Translations under genes and position numbers: made by a program
Source: Anoxybacter fermentans
GTDB lineage: Bacteria > Bacillota > Halanaerobiia > DY22613
DNA length: 64,000 nt
Direction: 5' to 3'
Assembly (NCBI RefSeq): GCF_003991135.1
Contig: NZ_CP016379.1
Coordinates: 1,612,001-1,676,000 of the forward strand
The notes under the pieces: generated by a model
Seen by the model: only the letters and a program-made list of their open reading frames with translations
Databases searched by the model: none
What the model was told of the DNA's origin: nothing
Shown here: piece by piece, positions 3,025-38,422 of the stretch
Numbering within the stretch: position 1 is the stretch's first letter
Layout of the letters: each line of letters begins with the position of its first letter

Positions 3025-4635
3025 TTAAAGATAGATCAAATAGTGACAGTTAAAGGAAAGCAAATCAAGTTTAAGAAGTTCCTGGATTAAGGTTTGTTGA
3101 TACTTAAACAAATACGGGAAAATGTTAAACCGCCTTTCCTGAAAATTTCCATTTGGATACATGTTCATTTCGATTTTATCCAGCCGCCGTAAAAGAATTT
3201 CAGAATTTTTCCGATGTTGATGGAGAGCCTTATTTTCCAGATAGTTAATCTCGTCAATAATCCGCTTGAGATTGTCAGAACCCAGCTTTTTAAATTTCGA
3301 ATCTAACTGCTGTAAGTCTTTGATCAATTTTTGATACTCTGGAATAAACTTTTTCTTGATTAAATTAAACTTAGCTTTAATGTTCAGTTGGTCAACTTCT
3401 GAAAGGTGTTTATCACGAATTTCATCAAATCTCACAAAAACATCTATTGGCCGTATGTCATATTTCTTTAAACTTCTAAAAATAGTGTTCTCAATAAGAG
3501 TCATACTCACCCTGGGATAGATAATGGGCATTTCCATATCAAAAAGAGAATAGATCTTCCGATATTGAGCAAAATAAGCAATCTCGCCTGGCCCACCAAC
3601 ATAAGCTATAGTAGGAAATAAAAGATCCTGAAGTAGTGGTCTGGTTACAACATTGGTACTGACAGTCTCGGGCTGTTTTTCAATCCAGGTTTTAATCTCT
3701 TCAATGGAATAAACTCTATCCTTTCCCCTTAATTGATAACCACCATCGATCTTTTCCAATGGATAGCGAGCATCTTCTTCGATAAGAAAAAGATGTACTT
3801 GATCATCATTTTTCTGAATCTGAACCGGATAGCCAGCTTGAATCAGTCGTTTTCCAGCATCCTTCAGTAAAACAGTAATCTGATTACTTTTCTTAAGAAC
3901 CTGAAAGAAAAACTCTTTCCCCAAACGACGAAGTTCAGGATCCAGTGCATCAACAAATATAATTCCTGTATCTTTTAAAAGCCAGGTCATTATTCGCCCA
4001 AACCATTGAGCTAGATCGGTAGATTCTTTCGCCATTTCCTTTAGTTTCTCAATCATCTCAGGTTTAAATTCGGTATCCGGACTTTTCTTTTCAAATTGAT
4101 TTAAAAACTGCTGGATCTCATTTTGCATATTTAATTTACCAATAGGTTGACGATACACCTCTCCAGTTAGCCTTACTTCTATCTCTTCATGATCCCGGTT
4201 TAAAAAATATATTCTGGAAATCTCATAAAAGTCATGATCTTCGCTGGCAATCCAGAAAACAGGTACAGTCGAAATTCCCCTCATTGTTAACCGGTCAGCC
4301 AGTTGGATCACTGTCAGAGCTTTATAAATAGTGTACAGGGGCCCAGTAAGAACCCCTGCCTGCTGTCCGGTTATAACAACAACCGCTTCTCCTTTAGCCA
4401 GACGTTGAATATTTTCAAAAGTCTTCTGAGATGCTCCCAAAAGTCGATTATAACTCATCAGGGCATCTGCTAGCTCTTTTAAAGGATAACTTTGATTCAT
4501 CAGATACTGATAACGTTGGTCAAAAGAAAATGGATTGTGTGGATTATATTGAAAAAATTCTTTCACCTTTTTAAAATTATATCGATAATCATCAATTAAA
4601 GGCCTTTCTGAAATCCGAATCTCTTCAACTTTCAT
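3025..4635 (-). CDS. bshC: bacillithiol biosynthesis cysteine-adding enzyme BshC
   Basis: A 536-residue protein, the usual BshC length. BshC joins cysteine to glucosaminyl-malate in the last step of bacillithiol synthesis, in the cytoplasm. The segment VVITGQQAGVLTGPLYTIYK is the family's hallmark glycine-rich site, followed by FWIASEDHDFYEI in the Rossmann-like core; the C-terminal third is helical and charged, as in the known coiled-coil dimerisation domain. The ATG at 4635 has AGTGGAGG upstream. It starts 3 bases past the stop of selD, so it is probably the last gene of a selA-selD-bshC transcript. No bshA or bshB lies in the window. Function assignment rests on motif and length. Confidence 0.88.
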   Translation of the reverse strand: MKVEEIRISERPLIDDYRYNFKKVKEFFQYNPHNPFSFDQRYQYLMNQSYPLKELADALMSYNRLLGASQKTFENIQRLAKGEAVVVITGQQAGVLTGPLYTIYKALTVIQLADRLTMRGISTVPVFWIASEDHDFYEISRIYFLNRDHEEIEVRLTGEVYRQPIGKLNMQNEIQQFLNQFEKKSPDTEFKPEMIEKLKEMAKESTDLAQWFGRIMTWLLKDTGIIFVDALDPELRRLGKEFFFQVLKKSNQITVLLKDAGKRLIQAGYPVQIQKNDDQVHLFLIEEDARYPLEKIDGGYQLRGKDRVYSIEEIKTWIEKQPETVSTNVVTRPLLQDLLFPTIAYVGGPGEIAYFAQYRKIYSLFDMEMPIIYPRVSMTLIENTIFRSLKKYDIRPIDVFVRFDEIRDKHLSEVDQLNIKAKFNLIKKKFIPEYQKLIKDLQQLDSKFKKLGSDNLKRIIDEINYLENKALHQHRKNSEILLRRLDKIEMNMYPNGNFQERRFNIFPYLFKYQQTLIQELLKLDLLSFNCHYLIYL

Positions 4636-4637
4636 TA

Positions 4638-5696
4638 TTAAACCTCCACTTTCAATTTCTGAGGATGTTCTGCTACTACATCACCTATTATCGCAGTAGT
4701 AATAACACCCTTCCGTGCTTTAAGTGCCGTAATCAATTCTTCAACCCGTTCTTCCGGTACAGAGATGAGAAGACCACCAGAAGTTATGGCATCACTCAAA
4801 ATTAGCTGTTCCATCTCACTGATTCCTTCTGCAAATTCCACCTTATCAGCAAGATATTTTAAATTAGCACGGGTCCCACCAGGGAAAACATTCTGAAGAG
4901 CATATTCATAAGTAGCTGGAAGTACAGGAACCTTATCTTTATAGATCCGAATCCCAACATCGCTGGCCTTTGCCATTTCATAGGCATGACCTAATAGACC
5001 AAAACCTGTAATATCTGTACAAGCATTGACACCCACTTCCTGCATCGCCTCTGCAGAATCTTTATTTAAAGTAGTCATAACCTCAACTGCTTCTTCAATT
5101 ACATCATCTGAAGCCAGCCCCTTTTTGATGGCTGTTGTTATAATACCAATTCCGAGAGGTTTAGTTAAAACCAGTTTATCACCAACCTTGGCCCCGGCAT
5201 TAGTTAAAACTTTTTTGGGATGTACTAAACCCGCTACTGAAAGACCATATTTGGGTTCCGGGTCATCTATAGTGTGTCCACCAGCAATACAGGCCCCCGC
5301 TTCTGCCACTTTATCAGCTCCCCCAGCCAAAATCTGAGCCAACACTTCCAGAGGGAGTTTTTTCGGAGAGAACCCAACAATATTCAAGGCAGTGATAGGA
5401 TAACCTCCCATTGCGTAAACATCACTTAAAGCGTTAGCCGCTGCAATCTGTCCAAAGGTATAAGGGTCATCAACAATGGGAGTAAAATAGTCCAATGTTT
5501 GAATCAAAGCCATCTCTTCATTTAAGATAAAAACTCCTGCATCATCAGCAGTATCTGGGCCAACAATCAACCGTTTATCTACAGGTAATTGGGGTAATTG
5601 GCACAGAACCTGTGCCAGGGTCTCAGGACCCAATTTACAGCCTCAACCAGCTTTAGTAGAATAACTTGTTAACCGAATCTTTTCATCAATAGTCAT
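4638..5696 (-). CDS. selD: selenide, water dikinase, selenocysteine-containing
   Basis: SelD makes selenophosphate from selenide and ATP for selenocysteine-tRNA synthesis. An automatic start at 5633 misses the N-terminus: reading on from ATG 5696 gives MTIDEKIRLTSYSTKAG, then TGA at 5645-5643 (codon 18), then GCKLGPETL. The TGA sits exactly at the catalytic Cys/Sec position of SelD, followed by the lysine of the G-C-K motif. Two small hairpins follow the TGA, one suitable as a bacterial SECIS. With Sec the protein is 352 residues, the normal length. VGPDTADDAGVF, AGGHTIDDPEP and ITGFGLLGHAYEMA are conserved SelD ATP/metal-binding segments. Upstream selA is 33 bases away; downstream bshC follows by 3 bases. 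Confidence 0.95.
5599..5631 (-). promoter_or_regulatory. candidate SECIS hairpins for the selD UGA codon
   Basis: Two adjacent perfect stem-loops follow the UGA in the mRNA. The nearer (5618-5631) is GGGUC-CUGA-GACCC, loop 17-20 bases after UGA. The farther (5599-5617) is UGGCACAG-GUU-CUGUGCCA, loop about 34-36 bases after UGA with G as its first base. Known bacterial SECIS elements have a loop within roughly 16-37 bases and a G at the start of the loop, so the farther hairpin is favoured. Confidence 0.7.
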
Positions 5697-5728
5697 ATCT
5701 ATATTCCACCTCCAGAGTTATTCTCATA

Positions 5729-7126
5729 TCACCTATTTACTTTAAGCAAAGCCTCAAGAATCTCATCTTCCTGATCAGGAAAAACTGTTCTCAAATCAAA
5801 GAGCAGTTCATCATCCTGAATCCGGCAAATAACCGGTACTTCCCCCTGTCGAAGCTGAATTTCGGCATCAGTAGTAGAAATTCTATTAAATTTAACCCCA
5901 ACAAGCCAGGTAGGAATTTCTTCTAAAGGAAGACTTCCCCCTCCCACCATAGATCGTCCTTCAACGACTCGAATTTCTACCTCATTAAGTGTCTCCTTTA
6001 AACGTTGAGCAAATTTTTCTACTCGTTTTTTAATTACATCAGCAGTTAGTTTAAGCATTCTTAATGTGGGTATCTCATTCATCGCCTCTTCCTCTCTTAA
6101 ATAATGCTTGAGGGTTACCTCTAAAGCTGCCAGAGTAAATTTATCAACCCTGAGAGCACGGAGCAAATGATTCCGTTTTAAACGCTGAATGTATTCTTTT
6201 TTTCCAACAATAATCCCTGCCTGGGGTCCCCCCAGAAGCTTATCTCCACTAAAAGAAACCAGATCAACTCCATGAGAGACGGCTTCCTGTACTGTCGGCT
6301 CATGGGCAATTCCATATTTTTCTAGATTAATCAAAACTCCACTACCCAGATCTTCAAAAACGGGAATTTGATACTTATGTGCCAGTTCCACCAGTTCCTT
6401 ATTTTCTACTGACTTACTGAAACCTACAATTTGATAATTGCTGGTATGTACTTTGACTAAAAGTCCGGTCTCAGAAGTGATGGCATTTTCATAATCATAT
6501 AAATGTGTTTTATTAGTTGAACCTACCTCTACCAGAGTACAGCCGCTGATTTTCATAACTTCGTGCATTCTAAATGATCCACCAATCTCCACCAATTCAC
6601 CGCGGGAAATAATCACTTCTTTACCCTTAGCAAGAGTACTCAGCACCAAAAGAACAGCTGCTGCGTTATTATTAACAACAAGGGCATCTTCAGCACCGGT
6701 CAAACGGCAGAGAAGATCAGTTACCAGTGTATAACGGCTACCCCTTTTCCCTTCTTTTAAGTCATATTCTAAGTTGGAATATGTCCTTGCAATCTGGGCC
6801 AGCGCATCTGCAGCCTTTTCACTCAAAACCGCTCTCCCCAGATTAGTATGGAGAACTGTACCAGTGGCATTAATAACCTTTTTTAAACGGGGAGCCATAT
6901 AAGCAAGAATAGCTTCTTTAGCTTCTCTGGCTAGCCCCTCTATCGAAAGATCAAGTTTTTCTGGATCAGTAGTTTCTTCTAAAATATCCCTTCTTTTCTT
7001 ATCTAAAACCTGATTTATAAGATCAACCACCAAATCATGGGGATATTCAGTCAGAATATTTTGTATCTCTGTCGTCTGTAACAGACGATTTACCGCCGGA
7101 ATTTTTCGTAAATACTCCTGTTTCAC
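5729..7126 (-). CDS. selA: L-seryl-tRNA(Sec) selenium transferase
   Basis: A 465-residue PLP enzyme that converts seryl-tRNA(Sec) to selenocysteyl-tRNA(Sec). The N-terminal 60 residues (LRKIPAVNRLL) are the family's tRNA-binding domain. VINATGTVLHTNLGRAVLS and TGAEDALVVNNNAAAVLL belong to the PLP-binding core, and the PLP lysine lies in SFSGDKLLGGPQAGII. Length matches bacterial SelA. ATG at 7126 is preceded by AGGTGA. It is the first gene of a selA-selD-bshC group. selB and tRNA-Sec are not in the window but must exist elsewhere if the selD UGA is read. Confidence 0.95.
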   Translation of the reverse strand: MKQEYLRKIPAVNRLLQTTEIQNILTEYPHDLVVDLINQVLDKKRRDILEETTDPEKLDLSIEGLAREAKEAILAYMAPRLKKVINATGTVLHTNLGRAVLSEKAADALAQIARTYSNLEYDLKEGKRGSRYTLVTDLLCRLTGAEDALVVNNNAAAVLLVLSTLAKGKEVIISRGELVEIGGSFRMHEVMKISGCTLVEVGSTNKTHLYDYENAITSETGLLVKVHTSNYQIVGFSKSVENKELVELAHKYQIPVFEDLGSGVLINLEKYGIAHEPTVQEAVSHGVDLVSFSGDKLLGGPQAGIIVGKKEYIQRLKRNHLLRALRVDKFTLAALEVTLKHYLREEEAMNEIPTLRMLKLTADVIKKRVEKFAQRLKETLNEVEIRVVEGRSMVGGGSLPLEEIPTWLVGVKFNRISTTDAEIQLRQGEVPVICRIQDDELLFDLRTVFPDQEDEILEALLKVNR

Positions 7127-7332: not shown

Positions 7333-8939
7333 CCCGAATTCGACAGCTCATAGGTAAAAAAATATCTAATAAAAGCCGTTATTACAGCATCCATAAAGGT
7401 TTGACTCCTTTTTAGAGCTGTACCTATGATTTTGGCTCAATTTTTGGATACCCTGAAGGCTTCCTGATTCCCACCATTTCAATGATCTTAAGCTGTTTGT
7501 TGGTTAATTCTGTACATTGATATACCTCTCCAGAATTAAAAATAAATTTTCCTATTTTGATCTTATCTAATTCATGGCGAAGGTTTCTCCAGGTCATCTT
7601 TGTAGCATTTTCTGCAACCCTGACTAACAATAAAGCCAACCATGATAGTAATACATGGGCTCTGATTCTTTCTTCTAATCAATGATATACCGGCCTTATC
7701 TCCAAGTCATTTTTTAGTGTCCTAAACGAGTTTTCTATCTCTACAAGCTGTTTGTACCCTAAAGCTACATCTTCGGCTGAAAGGGTATCATCTGATGTGG
7801 TAATTAGATATTTGCCGTCATATTTTTCTTCTTCCCTGACCTTCATCCTGTTAAGCTTTAAACGACCATCTTTTAATTGCCTGATATACTTGCCATAAGT
7901 AGGGTGAGACCTCAAATTACACATAGCTTTAGTATGTGCTTTACCGGATAATTGTCTTAGAGACTTTAACTGGCTTTCTATTTCTTTGATAATCTGTTCT
8001 CTTTGTCCTTTCTGCCTTCTGGCTTCTAAAGGATTATAGGCTAAAAAACATAACGCTTTCTTGCTTCACCATCACCAACTATGATTTCTTTTATCTCAAG
8101 GTTATCTTTAATCTTTTGATAACGTCCTGAACGGGCCAGGGCTTCTTTTACTTCTTTCTTGCTGGAGCGAAGTTTTTCTCCCATTATGTAATGGCCGCCT
8201 GCTCTCTGTAAATAGCGTTTATTTTCATCTGAAGCAAACCCACAGTCCATAACTGAGATGACTCGACCTAATTTCCAACCCACCAGGTCATCTTTAACTT
8301 CCTGAATAACAGACATATCAGAAATATTACCAGACCAGACCCAGTTTTTAATTGGAATACCATCTCTAGTGACAGCCAGTCCTATAACCATTTGGACTAA
8401 ATCAGGCCTTTTATTTTTAGAAAACCCTAATTGTCTGAAGTTGTCATCTTCAGGCACCTCGCCTGGCTGAACTTCAAAATAGCAGGAAGTGGTATCAAAA
8501 AAGAGAAGATCTACTTCCAGATTTAATAAATGAGCAACCGAATTAAATACCTGTTCTTCCAGTTCATCTTTTACCTCTAAAAGAAAATCCATAGCACACG
8601 TCGAAACAGAAGAATCGCCACAGTTGATCCAGCGCCCAGACACCACCAAATTTTTTGGCAAGGACAAAAGAAAAGTCAGCTGCTCTGACAATTTTATCTT
8701 TAGCAAACATTGCCTCTTCAGGATTCAGGTAACGGTTAATGCTATCTACCAGACGTTCTAAAACCTTTCGATCTAATTGATCCTCCCTTCCAAAAGAATA
8801 GATAACTTTGGTTTTGGAATACCCGGCTTCTGAATCCCAGTAATTATGGCAAAGCTGGAGATATGAAATTAATGTTGATATATCAGGATTCTTACTCAAA
8901 AACAAGTCTAAATATACCTATTTACTGTCGAACTCGGGT
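7333..8939 (-). mobile_element. degenerate IS1634-type insertion sequence
   Basis: A 1607-bp element with imperfect terminal inverted repeats: CCCGAATTCGACAG at the left end and CTGTCGAACTCGGGT at the right. It is flanked by a 5-bp direct repeat, aagaa, at 7328-7332 and 8940-8944, which fits the 5-6 bp duplications of this family. The single transposase gene inside is broken, so the copy is dead. Confidence 0.8.
7424..8905 (-). pseudogene. IS1634-type transposase, broken into four pieces
   Basis: Reading from 8905, the N-terminal piece (8905-8564, TLISYLQLCHNYWDSEAGYSKTKV then IYSFGREDQLDRKVLERLV) resembles the start of IS1634 transposases. The frame then shifts to 8706-8041, which holds the first DDE aspartate region (LLFFDTTSCYFEV) and VISVMDCGFASDENKRYL, the probable second. 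A stop follows; 7924-7679 carries VEIENSFRTLKNDLEIRPVYH with the catalytic glutamate region typical of IS4-like enzymes. Another break precedes 7639-7424, the C-terminus. At least three disabling changes are needed to explain this, so it cannot make active transposase. Confidence 0.85.
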
Positions 8940-10556: not shown

Positions 10557-11951
10557 GGGTCTATAATTAATGTTGTGAAGAAAAAATTATAAAAAATAAA
10601 AAGGCATTTGCTGGCCCCGTTGAATTAATTAGTTGCGAACTAAAAACCAAAGAAAGGAGTCCAGCAAATGCAATATAATAATATCATAAAATTTCTTGAT
10701 TTGCCAGACATTATTGCAACTGAAATTATTTCAACGGAGGACAGATATATTTTTATCGCTGAAGCAAAGAAAAATCACATTGTGTGTCCTCAGTGTGGTA
10801 ATATCACTAATAAAATCCATGATACAAAATGGCAAAATATTAGAGACATCCCCATAAGAGGTAAACTAGTAATCATTAGACTTCTAAAGAAAAGATATCG
10901 TTGTCCTTATTGTCATAAGAGGGGTATCCCTGAAAAATATGAAAGTATTGATAAATATGCCCGTAAAACCAAACGCTTTGATAAATATCTTGCTAAAGAA
11001 ACTGTCAGCAAGGATTATTCTAAAGTTGCTAGAGAAAACGGGTTAAGTTATACAGCTGTTAATAATGCAGTTAAAAAAGTAGTTGACCCTCTCATTAAAC
11101 AACAAGTTTCAAAACTTAGTCAATTAAAAGCCATCAGTATCGATGAATTTGCAGTTTTAAAACGCCATAAATATGGAGTTAGCATTACAGATCCAATTAA
11201 TCGGGAGTTAATTGACATTTTACCTACTCGCAAAAAGGATGATTTAATTGACTACTTTAATTGTTGGGAAGATGAACAAAGACGACAGATTCAATCGATC
11301 TCTATGGATATGTGGCGGCCGTTCAAAGCAGTAGCAGATGCAGCATTTACTCATGCAAAAATTGTTATAGATAAATTTCATCTTGTAACTTTAATGAACA
11401 GAGCCCTTGATGAAGTTAGAAAACAAGTTCAACAAACAGTAAATAATCATCAGAGAAGAAAGTTTTTTCAAAGTCGTTTATTACTCCAAAAACGAGCTGA
11501 AGAATTGACAGATGAAGAACATGAAAAGCTCATCAAATTATTTGAACTCAGTCCAGCTCTAGAAAAGGCCTGGGAATTAAAAGAGGAATTCAGAGACTTA
11601 TTGCAGCTAGATGATGTGAAAGAAGCCACCAGAGCTCTAAAAAGGTGGTATAAAGAAGTAATAAAAAGCAAGCTGATGCCTTTTTACCAGGTAAAAAAGA
11701 TAATACAAAGATGGGAAGAAAAAATACTAAATTATTTTAAGACTAAGATAACCAATGGCTTTGCTGAGGGTATCAATAACAAGATTAAATTGATCAAAAG
11801 GATTGGATATGGTGTTCCAAATGTTATGAATCTAAGGAGAAGAGTATTTAATGCAATGTTAAGTTATTAAATTTAAATGTTTATTTCAAAATCAATTTAC
11901 CAATCAATTCAACGGAGCCAACTTATCTTTCACAACATTTGACGGAGAGCC
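10557..11951 (+). mobile_element. ISL3-type insertion sequence, copy 1
   Basis: A 1395-bp element with one intact transposase gene. The ends share an imperfect inverted repeat (GGGTCTATAATTAATGTTGTG at the left; the right end reads CACAACATTTGACGGAGAGCC). It is flanked by a perfect 8-bp duplication, taattttt, at 10549-10556 and 11952-11959, the duplication size of ISL3. The boundaries are confirmed by copy 2 (37028-38422), which has the same length and a different 8-bp duplication. It interrupts the pseudogene on the opposite strand. Confidence 0.93.
10668..11870 (+). CDS. ISL3-family transposase, intact
   Basis: A 400-residue transposase, normal for ISL3. The N-terminal zinc finger is HIVCPQCGNITNKIHD followed by KRYRCPYCHKRGIPEKY (C-x2-C pairs), then a helix-turn-helix region (TVSKDYSKVARENGLSYTAV). 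The DDE catalytic core has SIDEFAVLKRHKY (first Asp), SMDMWRPFKAV (second Asp) with FTHAKIVIDKFHLVTLMN, and the glutamate in NGFAEGINNKIKLIKRIGYG. ATG at 10668 follows GAAAGGAG. Because the reading frame is intact and copy 2 is nearly identical, the element may still be mobile. Confidence 0.95.
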   Translation: MQYNNIIKFLDLPDIIATEIISTEDRYIFIAEAKKNHIVCPQCGNITNKIHDTKWQNIRDIPIRGKLVIIRLLKKRYRCPYCHKRGIPEKYESIDKYARKTKRFDKYLAKETVSKDYSKVARENGLSYTAVNNAVKKVVDPLIKQQVSKLSQLKAISIDEFAVLKRHKYGVSITDPINRELIDILPTRKKDDLIDYFNCWEDEQRRQIQSISMDMWRPFKAVADAAFTHAKIVIDKFHLVTLMNRALDEVRKQVQQTVNNHQRRKFFQSRLLLQKRAEELTDEEHEKLIKLFELSPALEKAWELKEEFRDLLQLDDVKEATRALKRWYKEVIKSKLMPFYQVKKIIQRWEEKILNYFKTKITNGFAEGINNKIKLIKRIGYGVPNVMNLRRRVFNAMLSY

Positions 11952-37027: not shown

Positions 37028-38422
37028 GGCTCTCCGTCAAATGTTGTGAAAGATAAGTTGGCTCCGTTGAATTGATTGGTAAATTGATTTTGAAATAAAC
37101 ATTTAAATTTAATAACTTAACATTGCATTAAATACTCTTCTCCTTAGATTCATAACATTTGGAACACCATATCCAATCCTTTTGATCAATTTAATCTTGT
37201 TATTGATACCCTCAGCAAAGCCATTGGTTATCTTATTCTTAAAATAATTTAGTATTTTTTCTTCCCATCTTTGTATTATCTTTTTTACCTGGTAAAAAGG
37301 CATCAGCTTGCTTTTTATTACTTCTTTATACCACCTTTTTAGAGCTCTGGTGGCTTCTTTCACATCATCTAGCTGCAATAGGTCTCTGAATTCCTCTTTT
37401 AATTCCCAGGCCTTTTCTAGAGCTGGACTGAGTTCAAATAATTTGATGAGCTTTTCATGTTCTTCATCTGTCAATTCTTCAGCTCGTTTTTGGAGTAATA
37501 AACGACTTTGAAAAAACTTTCTTCTCTGATGATTATTTACTGTTTGTTGAACTTGTTTTCTAACTTCATCAAGGGCTCTGTTCATTAAAGTTACAAGATG
37601 AAATTTATCTATAACAATTTTTGCATGAGTAAATGCTGCATCTGCTACTGCTTTGAACGGCCGCCACATATCCATAGAGATCGATTGAATCTGTCGTCTT
37701 TGTTCATCTTCCCAACAATTAAAGTAGTCAATTAAATCATCCTTTTTGCGAGTAGGTAAAATGTCAATTAACTCCCGATTAATTGGATCTGTAATGCTAA
37801 CTCCATATTTATGGCGTTTTAAAACTGCAAATTCATCGATACTGATGGCTTTTAATTGACTAAGTTTTGAAACTTGTTGTTTAATGAGAGGGTCAACTAC
37901 TTTTTTAACTGCATTATTAACAGCTGTATAACTTAACCCGTTTTCTCTAGCAACTTTAGAATAATCCTTGCTGACAGTTTCTTTAGCAAGATATTTATCA
38001 AAGCGTTTGGTTTTACGGGCATATTTATCAATACTTTCATATTTTTCAGGGATACCCCTCTTATGACAATAAGGACAACGATATCTTTTTTTTAGAAGTC
38101 TAATGATTACTAGTTTACCTCTTATGGGGATGTCTCTAATATTTTGCCATTTTGTATCATGGATTTTATTAGTGATATTACCACACTGAGGACACACAAT
38201 GTGATTTTTCTTTGCTTCAGCGATAAAAATATATCTGTCCTCCGTTGAAATAATTTCAGTTGCAATAATGTCTGGCAAATCAAGAAATTTTATGATATTA
38301 TTATATTGCATTTGCTGGACTCCTTTCTTTGGTTTTTAGTTCGCAACTAATTAATTCAACGGAGCCAGCAAATGCCTTTTTATTTTTTATAATTTTTTCT
38401 TCACAACATTAATTATAGACCC
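37028..38422 (-). mobile_element. ISL3-type insertion sequence, copy 2
   Basis: 1395 bp, same length and almost the same sequence as copy 1 at 10557-11951, in the opposite orientation. Flanked by a perfect 8-bp duplication, aaaatatt (37020-37027 and 38423-38430). Confidence 0.95.
37109..38311 (-). CDS. ISL3-family transposase, intact (copy 2)
   Basis: 400 residues, differing visibly from copy 1 at one position (FKNKITNG here, FKTKITNG in copy 1). It has the same zinc-finger pairs and DDE core, with the first Asp in SIDEFAVLKRHKY, the second in SMDMWRPFKAV and the glutamate in NGFAEGINNKIK. The frame is complete and carries a normal ribosome site (GAAAGGAG), so the enzyme should be made. Confidence 0.95.
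   Translation of the reverse strand: MQYNNIIKFLDLPDIIATEIISTEDRYIFIAEAKKNHIVCPQCGNITNKIHDTKWQNIRDIPIRGKLVIIRLLKKRYRCPYCHKRGIPEKYESIDKYARKTKRFDKYLAKETVSKDYSKVARENGLSYTAVNNAVKKVVDPLIKQQVSKLSQLKAISIDEFAVLKRHKYGVSITDPINRELIDILPTRKKDDLIDYFNCWEDEQRRQIQSISMDMWRPFKAVADAAFTHAKIVIDKFHLVTLMNRALDEVRKQVQQTVNNHQRRKFFQSRLLLQKRAEELTDEEHEKLIKLFELSPALEKAWELKEEFRDLLQLDDVKEATRALKRWYKEVIKSKLMPFYQVKKIIQRWEEKILNYFKNKITNGFAEGINNKIKLIKRIGYGVPNVMNLRRRVFNAMLSY

Follow-up and report, generated by a model that had tools for sequence, protein, structure and literature searches.

A selenocysteine-containing SelD of Anoxybacter fermentans with two selected hairpins after its UGA codon, a possible compound bacterial SECIS element

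The selD locus and its in-frame UGA codon

The window, a stretch of 64,000 nucleotides from the genome of Anoxybacter fermentans, carries on its minus strand a selD gene (4638..5696) of 352 codons with selenocysteine (Sec) at codon 18, which matched the SelD profile TIGR00476 with 410.7 bits (cut-off 125). A GGAGG on the same strand (5709..5713), 12 nt before the AUG at 5696, reads as the likely ribosome-binding site. The selA gene (5729..7126, minus strand; 634.9 bits, cut-off 267.9) lies 32 bp upstream, and selA and selD probably form one operon. Directly after selD, on the same strand, follows bshC of bacillithiol synthesis (3025-4635; 536.9 bits). Upstream of selA, pieces of an IS1634-type transposase are found in separate short frames (7679-8905, minus strand; 71.8 bits, under the cut-off, and 156.6 bits, over it), which are probably a broken insertion element. 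An ISL3 transposase of 400 aa is encoded at 10668-11870 on the plus strand (339.5 bits), and an ORF of the same length, perhaps another copy, is located at 37109-38311 on the minus strand.

The selD frame, running from 5696 to 4638, contains a single TGA (5643..5645, minus strand) and is otherwise open, which bears out the original prediction, made from the sequence alone, that codon 18 is read through with STKAG-U-GCKLG spanning it. The prediction also held that automatic annotation would truncate the gene by 22 N-terminal residues; the truncation stands, with the number corrected to 21, because the ORF list starts the frame at TTG 5633 (331 aa). The stretch STKAGUGCKLG contains the N-terminal loop motif of SelD, which we take to be Sec or Cys followed by x-C/A-K, and this motif accompanies the profile score in assigning the protein to the SelD family. 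Searching the genome with the same profile gave five matches, only one of which, selD with its one internal TGA, exceeded the cut-off. Another frame (L018, G000:C1:3320533-3321288), SelD-like, 331 aa long and free of TGA, scored 93.7 bits, below the cut-off of 125.

The genome, a single contig of 3.56 Mb, contains selA, selB, selC and selD. One selB match exceeded the cut-off (436.6 bits, cut-off 242.25), and a tRNA-Sec gene about 2.2 kb past the end of the window scored 76.2 bits (gathering score 47) and was reported by ARAGORN as SeC (tca), so that the check for selB and selC that had been proposed with the prediction found both. The ORFs adjoining selB (L001) presumably encode XdhC/YqeB-type proteins of selenium-dependent molybdenum enzymes, to judge from their sequences.

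In the host's class, SelD was matched at E ≤ 1e-40 in 41 of 59 genomes, with 42 genes in all. One in-frame TGA was present in 40 of these 42 genes, and the selD of the nearest relative likewise has a TGA. Of the 39 genomes in the class that encode a Sec-SelD, 36 had a selB match over the cut-off, versus 3 of the 20 others; the three Sec-SelD genomes with no selB match are all draft assemblies (57, 95, and 77% complete). The Cys-SelD genomes of the class, G057 and G058, had no selB match, and the genus sister G056, with Sec, had one. Because Sec-SelD goes with selB and the Cys-SelD genomes are without it, the distribution of the machinery argues for Sec. Among the 287 SelD loci listed, codon 18 was TGA in 240 and a Cys codon in 47, numbers that describe score-ranked matches and not population frequencies; two of 261 loci tried (L097 and L203) were left out with codon 18 not placed. 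Of the Cys genes, 28 come from a single order, that of one Bacteroidales genome, and most of these differ in peptide over the hairpin stretch. The in-frame UGA is thus conserved in relatives and replaced by Cys in others, within a context conserved on both sides. The orthologues do not start after codon 18, and the residues before the TGA are conserved.

These observations bear on the alternative that the TGA truly terminates translation, is an error or marks a pseudogene, with a shorter SelD starting at TTG 5633. The frame from this TTG is indeed open for 331 aa, but the TGA recurs in the nearest relative and across the class, where it is tied to selB, the residues before it are conserved, and Cys takes the place of Sec in orthologues; we regard this alternative as negligible and Sec at residue 18 as practically certain. 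The selD gene is itself a selenoprotein gene, as is already well known and ordinary for Sec-containing SelD. In the respective papers, RNAz found bacterial SECIS elements in Sec-SelD genes (PMC4561486), and SelD is listed as one of the most widely distributed selenoproteins, with conversions of Sec to Cys (PMC1794560). The present gene shares with Sec-containing bacterial SelD the protein family, the position of Sec and a bacterial SECIS (bSECIS) inside the coding region.

Two hairpins after the UGA and RNA-level selection on both stems

As had been predicted, two perfect hairpins follow the UGA directly adjacent to each other. The proximal hairpin, h1, occupies nt 12-25 after the UGA (5618..5631, minus strand) and has the sequence GGGUC-CUGA-GACCC, a 5-bp stem with the loop CUGA; we propose it as a spacer. 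The distal hairpin, which we propose as the SelB-binding SECIS, occupies nt 26-44 (5599..5617, minus strand) and has the sequence UGGCACAG-GUU-CUGUGCCA, a perfect 8-bp stem closed by the loop GUU. A GGU at nt 33-35 (5608..5610, minus strand) is, by its likeness to grdB and fdhF, the proposed SelB contact. Both hairpins are contained in the minimum-energy fold. The 81-nt stretch as a whole was only modestly more stable than its dinucleotide shuffles (z -1.76, 8 of 200 as good), and each hairpin segment exceeded in stability all 300 synonymous recodings of the same peptide.

According to a figure legend in PMC13188914, bSECIS elements have a loop of 3-9 nt with a G in its first two positions, an upper stem of 4-16 bp, a spacing of 16-37 nt and a minimum free energy of at most -7.5. 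The distal hairpin, with its loop GUU from nt 34 and a segment energy of -12.4, lies within every one of these bounds of the consensus bSECIS (the Zhang and Gladyshev model, as given there) and is the hairpin that accounts for the predicted agreement with the spacing and loop-G rules. The proximal hairpin, at -7.8, passes all of them except the loop G, as neither of the first two bases of CUGA is a G. A covariance search, suggested along with the prediction, returned no SECIS family for the selD hairpins: none of the Rfam families reached its gathering score in the window, and the six weak matches around the UGA at E ≤ 10 included no SECIS family.

To assess selection at the RNA level, we set every gene against random synonymous versions of itself, drawn according to its own codon frequencies, over nt 9-27 for h1 and nt 25-45 for the distal segment, with a threshold of p ≤ 0.05. 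A distal stem of 5 bp or more was present in 137 of the 240 Sec genes versus none of the 47 Cys genes among the matches listed, and the same set of listed matches underlies the counts that follow. In the 137 genes with a distal hairpin, h1 was more stable than expected in 91 (and not significantly so in 46) and the distal segment in 127. The corresponding numbers were 66 and 4 for the 103 Sec genes without a distal hairpin, and 8 and 0 for the 47 Cys genes. The h1 stem fell short of 4 bp in both main registers in 43 of the 240 Sec genes. When 20-nt windows were scanned across nt 1-98 with the same null, genes with the distal hairpin gave 90-94 of 137 at the windows from nt 7 and 9 and 128 of 137 at nt 25-44, with 21 and 22 in intermediate windows, 3-14 elsewhere and no other strong place. 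Genes without it gave 55-72 of 103 at the windows from nt 7, 9, and 13 and 2-10 elsewhere, and the Cys genes reached a maximum of 10 of 47 at nt 9-28, a slight excess at the position of h1. There is thus RNA-level selection on both stems in genes with the distal hairpin, on the proximal stem only in the other Sec genes, and little in Cys genes.

Covariation was measured in 135 Sec genes picked by peptide alone, a fairer set than an alignment of 88 rows selected for the distal hairpin. Pair 30-40 was Watson-Crick in 130 of 135 (shuffles: mean 65.5, maximum 78) and pair 33-37 in 129 of 135 (mean 69.1, maximum 87), the latter silent on both sides in nearly all. Codons 29 and 31 were CAG with CTG in 75 genes, CAA with TTG in 53 and other combinations in 7, with the residues unchanged. 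The peptide [AST]QVL occurs in only one of the 47 Cys genes (L057), whose sequence breaks pairs 30-40 and 33-37. Codons 28 and 32 were mostly complementary (GCG with CGC or CGT, GCA with TGC or TGT, GCC with GGC, GCT with AGT, TCG with CGA, ACG with CGT, and ACA with TGT), and residue 32 is therefore mostly Arg, Cys, Gly, or Ser. The RNA pairing here seems to steer the protein, the residue at position 32 mostly depending on which codon can pair with codon 28. In both couplings, of codons 28/32 and of codons 29/31, an RNA signal clearly constrains the sequence of the enzyme itself.

A FastTree phylogeny was built from the part after residue 37, whose length differs among loci (from 113 residues upwards). 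It shows at least 18 changes of codon 29 and at least 20 of codon 31. Over supported independent pairs, the two codons changed in the same direction in an average of 7.3 of 8 and in opposite directions in 0.0, although a few of the 200 random pairings had one opposite pair. Pair 30-40 gave 7.9 of 10 and 0.0, and pair 28-42 gave 2.8 of 7 the same way (median p 0.25). Two counters applied to the 88-row alignment agreed with the covariation; distal pairing in these 88 non-redundant genes (96.9%) is inflated because the rows were selected for the distal hairpin. RNAalifold did not recover h1 as a consensus in the same 88 genes because its register varies, pairing by a single register being 70.5% (register 38) or 61.6% (register 37), and h1 therefore rests mainly on the synonymous-codon tests. 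In genes with the distal hairpin, the wobble base of Gly23 was T in 58 of 65 with Asp or Thr at residue 26 versus 1 of 22 with Ala26 (supported independent pairs, 3.6 of 5; median p 0.125).

Architectures among relatives

The loops differ between Sec genes with and without the distal hairpin. Among the listed genes that have it, the distal loop was GUN in 131 of 137. Considering h1 stems of at least 4 bp, a GG at the start of the h1 loop was seen in 5 of 115 genes having the distal hairpin versus 40 of 81 lacking it, and a G stood in the first two positions in 38 of the 115. In the 103 listed genes without a distal hairpin, the first GG of the apical loop, counted with the closing pair included, was at nt 18 in 68 and at nt 19-21 in 26, and in the remaining genes it was elsewhere or absent. 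The codons of the proximal stretch follow the same division: Pro24 was CCG in 30 of 132 genes with the distal hairpin versus 74 of 102 without. Over the remainder of these genes, CCG accounts for 31% of Pro codons in either group. Within the class, we read from the sequences four genes of family f2 with a proximal hairpin only, bearing a GGA loop, and six genes of family f6 with an intermediate hairpin whose loop lies near nt 20-24.

These loops bear on the alternative that h1 is the SECIS, or a second one, and the distal hairpin an enhancer. It is true that h1 sits at the usual distance and that, where the distal hairpin is absent, a GG loop is usual in the proximal one; but in the present gene its loop CUGA fails the G rule, loops starting with GG or with a G in the first two positions are in the minority where a distal hairpin exists, and it is the distal loop that is so uniformly GUN. 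We therefore hold this alternative improbable.

With weak branches counted as well, the tree shows no fewer than 34 changes of the distal-hairpin state. On supported independent pairs, loss of the distal hairpin was not significantly associated with gain of the GG loop or with CCG at Pro24 (median p 0.0625 in each case). Such frequent interchange of the two forms would suit the idea that h1 is what remains, in decay, of an earlier proximal SECIS in genes now relying on a distal one, as would the Cys-SelD genes L036 (G057) and L041 (G058), in which, by reading of the sequence, the distal hairpin is lost and a 5-bp h1 stem is still possible. We consider this idea very improbable, even more so than a SECIS role of h1, given that h1 exceeds the synonymous null (p ≤ 0.05) in 91 of 137 genes. 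Moreover, where residue 26 is Ala, the codon of Gly23 is GGC in 20 of 22 genes that have the distal hairpin and GGG in 14 of 15 that lack it; a one-base shift in the register of a retained stem would produce this difference. By record title, the distal-hairpin loci belong to Bacillota, Methylomirabilota, Chloroflexota, Myxococcota, Latescibacterota, Armatimonadota, Sysuimicrobiota, Actinomycetota, and Nitrospinota, five of these nine phyla being represented by a single record each and many records being assembled metagenomes.

Loop position and a possible compound SECIS

The formate dehydrogenase profile TIGR01591 found no match in the genome, and the selD loops were therefore compared with those of two GRDB-family genes of the same genome with an in-frame TGA, L325 (G000:C1:1213983-1215023) and L328 (G000:C1:3427599-3428000), one of which we take to be GrdB-type and the second PrdB-like. 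In the GrdB-type frame, the TGA at codon 358 is followed by CGUUGC-GGU-GCAACG, which places GGU at nt 19-21, and Rfam SECIS_4 (RF01990) matches it with 61.6 bits, starting right after the TGA. The second frame can be read as CUCUGC-CGUGAUUGU-GCAGAG, with G22 and U23, a reading from which the program's fold differs. This genome, with its single selB match, thus has a GGU loop in the grdB element; selD, unlike grdB, matches neither SECIS_4 nor any other SECIS family. In the E. coli fdhF gene (MG1655 sequence), GGU again stands at nt 19-21 after the UGA. The selD hairpin resembles the fdhF SECIS in the GGU of its apical loop and differs from it in that fdhF has one hairpin and the GGU of selD lies 14 nt further on. 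The review PMC8659212, in its accessible text, describes loop positions G23 and U24 of fdhF as important and a bulged U17 in its stem; this fdhF-type bulge is absent from the perfect 8-bp distal stem of selD.

The span of h1 is 14 nt, and subtracting it from the position of the selD GGU (nt 33-35) gives 33 - 14 = 19. We extended this count to the 120 of 137 distal-hairpin genes with one proximal helix in nt 1-26, leaving out 15 with two proximal helices and 2 without any. Position 34 minus the proximal span was 18-23 in 99 of the 120, with a mode of 20 (40 genes), and fell outside this range in 21.

The arrangement suggests the following model. The UGA at codon 18 would be decoded as Sec by the cell's own SelA, SelB, tRNA-Sec, and SelD. 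The distal hairpin (nt 26-44), with G-G-U at nt 33-35, would serve as the SelB-binding SECIS, and binding of SelB to the distal loop is, in our judgement, very likely. About 11 nt of the mRNA downstream are covered by the ribosome (PMC4513850), and h1, starting at nt 12, just past the covered stretch, could for this reason stay folded at decoding. It would then take 14 nt out of the path and so bring the distal GGU to where such loops usually stand, effectively at nt 19-21. Lineages that lack the distal hairpin would instead use as SECIS a proximal or intermediate hairpin with its GG loop at nt 18-21. The geometry of h1 and the distal hairpin in relatives suggests that the two have different roles; whether h1 acts specifically as a spacer, a role that we infer from this geometry, is in our estimate evenly balanced. 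We hold similarly level expectations for a general compound bacterial SECIS, in which a distal SelB-binding hairpin and a proximal spacer of about 14 nt set the loop at the standard position and interchange with one-hairpin forms. The account for this gene, comprising Sec-SelD, the distal SelB-binding SECIS and the h1 spacer, seems to us, taken as a whole, somewhat likely.

The most serious competitor is that the distal hairpin is an ordinary bSECIS that tolerates a spacing of 33 nt, with h1 kept for another reason, such as ribosome pausing at the UGA, prevention of mispairing by the distal strands, or hindrance of the release factor. The published rules allow 16-37 nt, h1 is selected whatever its loop, and the present measurements do not separate spacing from pausing; the agreement of 33 - 14 with 19 would be left as a coincidence, and we consider this explanation possible but doubtful.

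Compared with known elements, the consensus bSECIS of PMC13188914 (accessible text) comprises one hairpin and a wide spacing, whereas in selD a second selected hairpin fills most of that spacing. The Epsilonproteobacterial SECIS covariance model (PMC4607533, accessible text), which includes SelD genes, is likewise a hairpin with an invariant loop G, but a single one of 5/6 bp a few nucleotides after the UGA, versus two here. The accessible accounts of Sec-SelD in PMC4561486 and PMC1794560 do not mention two hairpins, and a second hairpin between the UGA and the SECIS is not described in the accessible parts of these two papers or of PMC13188914, PMC9312934, PMC12013277, PMC4513850, PMC8659212, PMC1242214, and PMC4607533. 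Among the titles and abstract openings surveyed, none pointed to one. A signal of two hairpins, one of them a likely spacer, is less ordinary than Sec-SelD itself, and it may have been described before. If the spacer role is true, part of the 16-37 nt range of bSECIS spacing would reduce to one effective distance plus a folded spacer, which would sharpen selenoprotein gene prediction and provide a simple, testable rule for Sec insertion.

Two Sec-SelD genes (L139 and L140) were found in genome G025, which has two selB matches, as does G023. Many of the Cys-SelD matches L294-L311 and others, from the order of G442, lie in frames of about 720-760 aa, and SelD in these frames is therefore probably fused to another domain.
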